From Candidatus Atribacteria bacterium (GTDB lineage Bacteria > Bipolaricaulota > Bipolaricaulia > UBA7950 > UBA9294), in the NCBI GenBank assembly GCA_004525685.1, contig SPBW01000003.1, positions 1-38,608 of the forward strand: a stretch of 38,608 nt of DNA, given 5' to 3'. Shown here in pieces: positions 21,161-37,773 of this stretch; position 1 is the stretch's first letter; the number at the start of each line of letters is the position of its first letter. The notes under the pieces were generated by a model that worked only from the letters and a program-made list of their open reading frames with translations, made no database searches and was not told where the DNA came from. The position numbers were made by a program, and so were the translations under genes.

Positions 21161-21198
21161 AACGCCTCTCGCGTGAGAACGCGAGAGGCGTTTTCGTT
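21161..21198 (+). terminator. Intrinsic terminator closing the alpha operon
   Basis: aacgcctctcgcg (21161-21173), tgagaa, cgcgagaggcgtt (21180-21192): perfect 13-bp stem followed by a T-rich tract (ttcgtttgtcttt). Confidence 0.9.
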
Positions 21199-29875: not shown

Positions 29876-30901
29876 CTAGCAGATTCTCGGGACGGGGTCA
29901 CCGAGGGGCATGTCCAGGAATCGGCGACCGCCGACATCCGTCGTCACGACGACACGGCCAGGATAATCGATACTGACATGTCCGATGATGGCTGCATCAC
30001 AGCCCAGCGGATGTCGCTGCAGCGTCTCCAGAATCTGAGGAGCGACAGCCGGATCGACGATGAGCACGGCCTTGCCTTCGTTGGCGACCTCAAGCGGCGA
30101 GATGCCGAGAAGATCAGAGAGCGCTTGGACGGCATCTCGGATGGGAATGTCTGACTGCTGGATCTCCACGGTCATGTGCGACTTGCGAGCCATTTCATTG
30201 AGTGCTGCTGCCAATCCGCCACGCGTCGGATCCTTCATTGCGTGGATTCCGCCCAACGGGAGAATCGTCTGGATCATCGGCCAGATCGAGGCCACATCAG
30301 ATACGAGTTCTGTCTCCAGATGGAATTCCTCGCGAGCGGCAAGAAGCGCCATGCCATGATCGCCCAGCGTGCCGGAGACAATCACGACGTCTCCAGGGCG
30401 AGCGCCCGCGTCACCGATGGCCGGATCAGCAAGGCCGATGCCCGTCGTGTTGATGACGATACCATCCAGCTCGCCGCGTCCCATCACCTTGGTGTCCCCA
30501 CAAATAAGCGCTGCCTCGGAGCCAATCAGTGTTTCAGCAAACGACTGTACAATGCGATCAATATCTGCGATAGGGAAGTCCTCTTCGATGATGACGGCCA
30601 AACTCAAGGCGAGTGGTTTCGCGCCCATGACAGCCAGATCATTGAGCGTGCCGGCCGCGGCCAAGGTTCCGATGTTGCCGCCCGGGAAGAAGATCGGCTT
30701 GACCACGTGACTGTCTGTTGTCATCACCAATTCACCCGATGTGGGGAGAGCAATCGTGGCACCGTCATCCATGTCGGACAGGTTGATGCGTCCGGCAGAC
30801 GATGCCGCGAAGTGAGGCAACACATGCTCTGCCAGAAGCTTACCCATCAATTCGCCGCCAGCGCCATGCAACGGGGAAATGCGATCATCGGTGTGTGTCA
30901 T
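29876..30901 (-). CDS. hypE: [NiFe] hydrogenase maturation protein HypE
   Basis: ISPLHGAGGELMGKLL, GDTKVMGRGELDGIVINTTGIG, DPTRGGLAAALNEMA, C-terminal PRIC. Confidence 0.96.
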   Translation of the reverse strand: MTHTDDRISPLHGAGGELMGKLLAEHVLPHFAASSAGRINLSDMDDGATIALPTSGELVMTTDSHVVKPIFFPGGNIGTLAAAGTLNDLAVMGAKPLALSLAVIIEEDFPIADIDRIVQSFAETLIGSEAALICGDTKVMGRGELDGIVINTTGIGLADPAIGDAGARPGDVVIVSGTLGDHGMALLAAREEFHLETELVSDVASIWPMIQTILPLGGIHAMKDPTRGGLAAALNEMARKSHMTVEIQQSDIPIRDAVQALSDLLGISPLEVANEGKAVLIVDPAVAPQILETLQRHPLGCDAAIIGHVSIDYPGRVVVTTDVGGRRFLDMPLGDPVPRIC

Positions 30902-31983
30902 GGGAGCTCGCGACCTCCGTAGCGGAACCAAATGCTGCATGCCCCTTCAGAGCCAACCATGCAGGGGCCGACGGGAGTCAACGGCGTGCAGCGTGTCCCA
31001 AACAGCGGGCAATCAGTTGGCGTGGCTCGGGCGGTTAACACATCAGCGCACCGACACCCGGGAATGTCTTCATCACCCGTCACGCCTTCGATTTGGAATC
31101 TCGCTCGTGCATCAAACTGGGAGAATTCGGGACGCAGGCGAACGCCCGAGTTAGGAATCGTCCCGATCCCTCGCCAACGGACATCGGCAGATTCGAACAC
31201 CGTCTCGATCAGGAGCTGCGCCACCGTGTTCCCTTCATCAGCAACAGCGCGGGGGAACCCGTTCTCCACGAATCCCTTGCCATCACGAATCTGCCTGAGA
31301 ATGAGTGCGATTGCATAAAGAATATCAAGCGGCTCAAACCCGCCGACAACGACCGGAATCTCAAACTTGCCGAGATGTTGCCGATACGGAGCGAGTCCGA
31401 GGATTGTCGAGACGTGACCGGGAGCCAAATACCCGTCGATGTTCGTGCCCGGCATGCCAAGTAGCACGCCCATGGCTTCAGGGATCTTCTTGTGCGAGAC
31501 GAGAACCGATAGGTTTGCAGGCGGATCATCAAGCAGAATGGCTGCGGTCATCGGCGTTGTCGTCTCGAAGCCGACGGCGAAGAACACAACTTGTCGGTCC
31601 GTTTCTCGCGCAATCCTGACGGCTTCGTCTGTAGATAGAACCACGCGAATGTCGCATCCCTTGGAGCGTGCTTGTTCCAGTGTCAGCCGAGTGCCAGGCA
31701 CGCGCGTCATATCGCCGAACGTGCAGAGGATGGCACCCGCCTCAGCAATCTGAACGGCGGCATCGATATCGGCAGTTGGTGTTACGCAGACGGGGCAGCC
31801 AGGCCCCTCTAGGACTTCGACGGTATCTGGCAGAAAGCGACGCAACCCATGTTGCGTAATCGCCATCTCGTGCGTGCCGCACACATGAACGATTTTGACC
31901 GGCCTCGGCGGAGCGAGAATGGCAATGGCATCCGCCAGCTGGCGTGCACGAACAGGATCTGAAAGCTGAAACGGCCGTGCCAT
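30898..31983 (-). CDS. hypD: [NiFe] hydrogenase maturation protein HypD
   Basis: VHVCGTHEMAITQHGLR, GPGCPVCVTP, FGDMTRVPGT, FFAVGFETTTP, GFEPLDIL, C-terminal Cys cluster; 4-nt overlap with hypE. Confidence 0.97.
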   Translation of the reverse strand: MARPFQLSDPVRARQLADAIAILAPPRPVKIVHVCGTHEMAITQHGLRRFLPDTVEVLEGPGCPVCVTPTADIDAAVQIAEAGAILCTFGDMTRVPGTRLTLEQARSKGCDIRVVLSTDEAVRIARETDRQVVFFAVGFETTTPMTAAILLDDPPANLSVLVSHKKIPEAMGVLLGMPGTNIDGYLAPGHVSTILGLAPYRQHLGKFEIPVVVGGFEPLDILYAIALILRQIRDGKGFVENGFPRAVADEGNTVAQLLIETVFESADVRWRGIGTIPNSGVRLRPEFSQFDARARFQIEGVTGDEDIPGCRCADVLTARATPTDCPLFGTRCTPLTPVGPCMVGSEGACSIWFRYGGRELP

Positions 31984-32378
31984 TAGGACTCGCTCTTGGA
32001 GCTGGCGTTCTGTTCCTTACCAGCACGAGAACGCTTCGCGTTCTCGTCCGAACTCAACTCAGCCTGCCGGTCAGAGCGCCTGACGTCACCAACCGGAGAA
32101 CGCTTTGCGTTCTCCAACGAACTCAATTCATCTCTCTGAACTGAGTTCGCGTTCGCACCCAGCGAGTCTGCTAACTCGTCAAATAGTTTGAGCGTCTCCT
32201 CGCCATCCTCAGGAGAGAGGCGGCGAATGGCAAAGCCGGTATGAATGAGGACGTAGTCGCCTGGAGCCAGAGGCTCGGTCAGCGTGTCTAAACGCGTTGT
32301 CGTACGCACGCCGTTGTAGTCGACGACGGCTTCGTTATCTGTAATGGAGATTACCTTCGCAGGAGCTGCCAAGCACAT
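31983..32378 (-). CDS. hypC: [NiFe] hydrogenase maturation chaperone HypC with atypical repetitive C-terminal extension
   Basis: MCLAAPAKVISI...VDYNGV...GDYVLIHTGFAIRRLSPEDGEETLKLFDEL core; residues ~74-131 are repeat-derived. Confidence 0.93.
   Translation of the reverse strand: MCLAAPAKVISITDNEAVVDYNGVRTTTRLDTLTEPLAPGDYVLIHTGFAIRRLSPEDGEETLKLFDELADSLGANANSVQRDELSSLENAKRSPVGDVRRSDRQAELSSDENAKRSRAGKEQNASSKSES
32026..32130. repeat. Two in-frame 69-bp-period repeats containing perfect 9-bp-arm palindromes, within hypC
   Basis: cgagaacgc-ttc-gcgttctcg (32026-32046) and ggagaacgc-ttt-gcgttctcc (32095-32115), each followed by cgaactcaa(c/t)tca; offset exactly 69 bp. Encodes repeated ELSSxENAKRS. 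Confidence 0.92.
32119..32148. repeat. Third inverted repeat in the hypC tail (12-bp arms, one mismatch)
   Basis: gaactcaattca (32119-32130) - tctctc - tgaactgagttc (32137-32148). Confidence 0.8.
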
Positions 32379-37710: not shown

Positions 37711-37734
37711 CAGGAATGGGGACAGGAATGGGGA
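37711..37734. repeat. Two tandem copies of a 12-bp direct repeat
   Basis: caggaatgggga x2 (37711-37722, 37723-37734), running into the palindrome. Confidence 0.9.
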
Positions 37735-37773
37735 CAGGCTACTTTTCGCGCCTGCGAAAAGTAGCCTGTCCCC
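37730..37773. repeat. Perfect 20-bp-arm palindrome, REP-like (possibly REP-associated tyrosine transposase related)
   Basis: ggggacaggctacttttcgc (37730-37749) - gcct - gcgaaaagtagcctgtcccc (37754-37773). Confidence 0.9.

Follow-up and report, generated by a model that had tools for sequence, protein, structure and literature searches.

The window, the whole 38,608-nt stretch of DNA that was analysed, corresponds to contig C118 of a 2.4-Mb genome (G000) and carries the gene order hypC-hypD-hypE on the minus strand. The hypC gene (31983..32378; 131 codons, 131 aa) is an open reading frame matched by PF01455 and TIGR00074, and its stop codon overlaps the start of hypD, the next gene of the operon (30898..31983, minus strand; PF01924). 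An AIR synthase family gene (29876..30940, minus strand; PF00586 and PF02769) follows, and its name, hypE, is inferred from the operon order. The closest named relatives of the HypD protein come from Candidatus Bipolaricaulota genomes, with identities of at most 88%.

The conserved core of HypC covers residues 1–73 (32160..32378, minus strand). The Pfam match stops at residue 66 and the TIGR00074 match at residue 73, and approximately 58 residues lie beyond, including both peptides that a first-pass annotation had quoted as an in-frame extension of the protein. AlphaFold modeled HypC with confidence to approximately residue 80, with a predicted helix at residues 56–92, whereas the pLDDT values past residue 90 were 53–62, which makes disorder probable over most of the added tail. 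The element described below is probably neutral to HypC. In three hypC loci of other genera (L033, L034, and L037), the tail carried a different tandem repeat at the protein level (RSATTQA..., up to 149 aa), indicating that HypC tails in this bacterial family are variable by other means too.

The tail contains a complete double-hairpin element at 32095..32149 (minus strand), which reads, on the coding strand from 32149 down to 32095, CGAACTCAGTTCA-gagaga-TGAATTGAGTTCG, TT, GGAGAACGC-aaa-GCGTTCTCC. Hairpin A (CGAACTC...GAGTTCG; 32118..32149, minus strand), recognized by sequence and fold, has a 13-pair stem with one G-T mismatch. Hairpin B (32095..32115, minus strand) is a perfect inverted repeat with 9-bp arms, and the two together fold at −32 kcal/mol. 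The family junction GTTCGTTGGAG, an 11-mer enriched in the genus, lies at 32112..32122 (minus strand). The full unit matched the covariance model of the family with E = 2.3e-9, a value that is not independent because the model seed contains the hypC sequence. A second, truncated unit extends from 32061 down to 32025. It consists of the 3′ arm of hairpin A only (TGAGTTGAGTTCG, 32049..32061, minus strand), which was identified by sequence and by its direct repeat with the first unit and whose partner arm is absent, and then a variant hairpin B, ACGAGAACGC-gaa-GCGTTCTCGT (32025..32047, minus strand), which is a perfect 10-bp inverted repeat. This variant recurs at position 2446 of contig C26 in the same genome and in the hypC gene of the congener G027.

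Several details of the first-pass annotation were confirmed. The 69-bp offset of the two copies is exact, with 43-nt direct repeats at 32019–32061 and 32088–32130 that are 81% identical, and the perfect palindromes with 3-nt loops have arms of 10 bp at 32025–32047 and of 9 bp at 32095–32115. The third inverted repeat that it had described is also present, at 32118–32149, but it is not separate: it is hairpin A and forms one unit with the palindrome at 32095–32115. All the described parts were thus found where they had been placed, and only their grouping changed, because the palindrome at 32025–32047 belongs to the truncated unit. Across the 38.6-kb window, five perfect inverted repeats (arms ≥9, loop ≤10) were counted versus 0–4 in five Markov-simulated sequences, and two of the five sit in the hypC tail. 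A perfect inverted repeat at 21161–21192 with 14-bp arms, AACGCCTCTCGCGT-gaga-ACGCGAGAGGCGTT, is unrelated by sequence to the double hairpin.

Searching the genome with the tail revealed further copies, and the hypC element belongs to an apparently undescribed family of dispersed repeats that occupies dozens of sites in G000 and the congeners. Its members consist of two near-perfect hairpins linked by a constant junction, GTTCNTTGGAG; the inner arms vary widely and stay complementary, and the loops are not conserved. The unit is approximately 40–70 bp long and comprises two separate hairpins. Counts of the junction GTTCNTTGGAG in the five congeneric genomes were 29, 30, 10, 13, and 11, compared with 1–6 for the reversed pattern, and elsewhere in the bacterial family they were near the control level. 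A covariance model was then built from 26 copies, with a seed partly chosen for pairing. At E ≤ 0.001, it gave 110 matches in the five congeners versus a single match in the remaining 95 genomes of the class; at E ≤ 0.1, it gave 60, 53, 23, 12, and 30 matches in the five congeners and 0–3 in other members of the bacterial family. The best within-genome identity of the copies had a median of approximately 0.7, and near-identical copies were mostly tandem neighbors or located at contig ends; with dispersed copies mostly about 70% alike, recent transposition was not seen. Dense double-hairpin arrays were observed near contig ends at L126 (G000:C17), L127 (G000:C26), and L312 (G025:C74), suggesting that the repeats break assemblies and that the copy numbers are underestimates. 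Rfam returned nothing above the gathering score for 13 sources (84.8 kb), and assignment to an Rfam structured RNA family was rejected on this basis. Among the IMG/VR matches listed for a loose gapped pattern, all were taken as chance, and they are uninformative about phages. A literature search, with most subscription journals outside its reach, returned no paper on comparable repeats in Bipolaricaulota or Acetothermia.

The genomic context of the copies was analyzed in stretches around the matches, a sample enriched in element-bearing loci. Although 74% of the sampled DNA was called coding by a simple codon-usage gene finder, 95 of the 104 model matches were intergenic, a proportion (~91%) that is only approximate because short genes, hypC among them, escape the gene finder. 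Long open reading frames across intergenic copies mostly look spurious and were left out of the count of coding insertions. The elements showed no preferred orientation relative to neighboring genes (19 same, 20 opposite, 15 convergent, and 8 divergent).

The full element is present at the same position of hypC in G000 and in two congeners, G026 and G025, whereas in G027 nothing but a variant-type hairpin B remains. The element is absent from outgroup hypC genes. Because the hypC copy is common to three congeners, it is old, and no recent movement is shown at this locus. The 69-bp-offset repeat, together with the varied HypC tails of relatives (L033 and L034 carry other protein-level repeats), could be read as an ordinary extension of HypC that was duplicated locally, with no mobile or dispersed component. 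However, the unit is dispersed across the genus, mostly outside genes, and the differences within the element ignore codon position. The second hairpin, moreover, matches the hairpin in G027 hypC and that at C26:2446 and is therefore more than a duplicate of the first. We consider such an extension highly improbable, and local tandem duplication alone, which the first-pass annotation had tied to a unit occurring nowhere else, is contradicted by the dispersed family and was rejected.

Three genes were found to carry in-frame copies: hypC in three species, a Y1 transposase gene, and, at its extreme end, a radical-SAM gene. The Y1 transposase gene on contig C157 (PF01797; a match to NF047646 was below the cut-off) has a 45-bp (15-codon) in-frame insertion that is absent from 17 homologs; the inserted DNA consists of a double hairpin of 41 bp. 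In G028, an AmmeMemoRadiSam radical-SAM gene ends inside an element with ...ANPSGSLEF-stop. The three copies agree in orientation and reading frame (AAC...TTG GAG), which would occur by chance approximately once in 36 given six possibilities. All six frames are open in 30–38 of 45 elements, so that frame openness does not explain the common frame. Resting on three cases, the common frame is no more than suggestive.

The occurrence of sites that lack the element in relatives, which had been named as support for a mobile palindromic repeat, was observed at the Y1 transposase gene and at an element-bearing spacer of G026 that is missing from G000 (L212 versus L113; taken directly from the sequences, the aligner gap being poorly placed). 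Such filled and empty contrasts were seen between species or paralogs only, with no clear target duplication. A classical REP-like element moved by the Y1 (RAYT-type) transposases of the genome was considered, since Y1 genes are present, one of them carries a copy within, and REPs, which are hairpins and often paired, may also occupy in-frame positions within genes (PMC3733652). Y1 genes, however, occurred in 26 of 33 genomes of the bacterial family irrespective of the repeat, and all four Y1 loci of G000 were bordered by GGGGTCAG instead of the double hairpin. The GTAG tag was found at 1 and 0 of 72 flanks and the CGTC tag at 3 and 1 of 72, with approximately 2.5 expected; the flanks instead showed YG before hairpin A (G in 70/72) and G at position +2 past hairpin B (54/72). 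With the tags absent and the Y1 termini different, membership of the REP/RAYT system was rejected, and mobilization by Y1 transposases in the classical manner appears improbable.

The surroundings of the Y1 genes had features of their own. At L166, L167, L168, and L218 and in relatives of the bacterial family, the Y1 genes were bordered approximately 40 bp off by GGGGTCAG(A/G)(T/C)CTT, often at both ends, in a TIR-type arrangement. Most of the inspected Y1 copies, including all four of G000, had GGGGTCA-type motifs beside the gene, which resemble the GGGGWSAS ends of the TIR-type relatives of RAYTs (PMC3733652). Within the window, a perfect palindrome with 20-bp arms, GGGGACAGGCTACTTTTCGC-gcct-GCGAAAAGTAGCCTGTCCCC, lies at 37718–37773 just after another GGGGACAGG, and its end agrees with GGGGWSAS, the motif at the ends of TIR-type Y1 transposases. 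A similar pair was observed at G000:C108:13696–13745 and a single end at C26:331.

The pairing of the arms was quantified in the seed alignment. A total of 95.8% of the pair cells were paired, compared with 77% after shuffling, and 58 cells were changed on both sides, compared with 18 after shuffling; because the seed was partly chosen for pairing, the double changes are stronger evidence than the pairing percentage. Within hypC, hairpin B has AACGC/GCGTT in G000 and AATGC/GCATT in G026 and G025. In hairpin A, G026 and G025 differ from each other at three inner pairs, each of them changed in both arms. In the three species, the hypC differences at codon position 3 versus positions 1 and 2 were 48:14 in the core (36 codons) and 11:21 in the element (18 codons; Fisher p ~9e-5, the three pairwise comparisons not being independent). 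Judged from these alignments, the differences in the hypC element follow the palindrome, not the codon. Just upstream of the element, G026 hypC contains a palindrome of 41 bases: the conserved core sequence encoding DELAESL serves as its left arm, and the right arm is an exact reverse complement of the left. In G025, the counterpart of this right arm finds its best match in the left arm of G025 itself. Either an inverted copy was made twice independently or the arms were homogenized, and both point to hairpin-templated copying.

Arm complementarity maintained by selection on structure would also be compatible with the comparative data. The double hairpin could be a selected RNA structure, acting in mRNA processing, stability, or intergenic attenuation and located here near the hypC-hypD junction, that is conserved for its function. 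The strong covariation (58 versus 18 doubly changed cells), the mostly intergenic location of the copies, and the retention of elements at the same spacers across species, with arms changed in pairs, are all in line with this explanation. A fixed-sense RNA stem, however, would be expected to tolerate G-U but not A-C pairs, and the 170 stems contained 38 mismatches beside 1638 Watson–Crick pairs, with G-T (10) and A-C (7) similarly rare; selection of the stems and of the seed for pairing inflates this perfection. The rarity of both mismatches and the lack of orientation bias (19 same, 20 opposite) favor a palindrome at the DNA level, and the nonconserved loops and the lack of an Rfam match also speak against an RNA function, which we regard as unlikely.

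Template switching is reported to generate perfect hairpins and to repair them (PMC8794818, PMC7202029), and it was put forward as the cause of coding palindromes in nematomorph mitochondria (PMC6649704). We infer that it is at work on these arms. The reading that we favor, at a probability of roughly 0.62, is a genus-specific dispersed DNA repeat of two hairpins that entered hypC in an ancestor, with arms matched by template switching and a near-neutral protein tail. An ancestral copy would have entered the 3′ end of hypC before G000, G026, and G025 split, and the insertion may have been tolerated for being in frame, polar, and located outside the folded core. Arm complementarity would be kept mainly at the DNA level, through template switching in replication that uses one arm of a hairpin as the template for the other, and not mainly by selection on RNA or protein. 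Copies would multiply by local tandem duplication and by a rarer insertion route, and the tail would be close to neutral for HypC function. A bolder version, which we put forward only tentatively, is a separate class of bacterial repeats whose sequence is inherited only at the junction and the outer base pairs. Template switching would keep rewriting the arms as perfect palindromes, which could capture neighboring host DNA, even coding DNA, and thereby create new in-frame protein tails.

The earlier interpretation of an in-frame palindromic element resembling those of Rickettsia was largely right. Rickettsia palindromic elements (RPEs) are dispersed palindromic repeats that are mostly tolerated and lie in frame inside protein genes (PMC2229807, PMC3733652). 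Likewise, the present repeats are dispersed palindromes, with dozens of copies in five congeners, and in-frame gene copies that are absent from homologs (hypC, the Y1 transposase gene, and the radical-SAM end). Their size and architecture nevertheless differ, with 40–70 bp, two hairpins, and a fixed junction here, whereas RPE-1-type elements are long stem-loops of 105–146 bp with terminal inverted repeats; the hypervariable paired arms, the mostly intergenic location, and the unrelated organism also set them apart, RPEs being distinguished here by their descriptions. GTAG/CGTC REPs share the features of 20–40 bp hairpins, often dimers, that are mainly intergenic and sometimes in genes (PMC3733652). 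Unlike these REPs and their RAYTs, the present family lacks the tags, its inner arms are not conserved between copies, and the Y1 ends carry GGGGTCAG. By the features tested, the family behaves like RPEs, has a double-hairpin form, and belongs to neither RPEs nor tagged REPs. The DHE/RHE elements of fungal and sponge mitochondria are also double hairpins that are mostly intergenic, have complementary stem substitutions, and occasionally occur in genes (PMC2800124), but they are organellar and are likened here by architecture, not sequence. Nematomorph mitochondria similarly have inverted repeats in protein genes with arms evolving in concert (PMC6649704); those palindromes reach 284 bp, form no dispersed unit family, and encode conserved protein in both arms, whereas the present ones are short, dispersed, and located in a low-confidence tail.

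These results place a gene-entering palindromic repeat, a type best known from Rickettsia, in a deep-branching uncultured phylum and with a different architecture. They also raise the question of whether paired changes in a stem always indicate a selected RNA structure or whether palindromes may be maintained by replication alone, a question that is directly testable because the same in-frame copy can be traced in three species.
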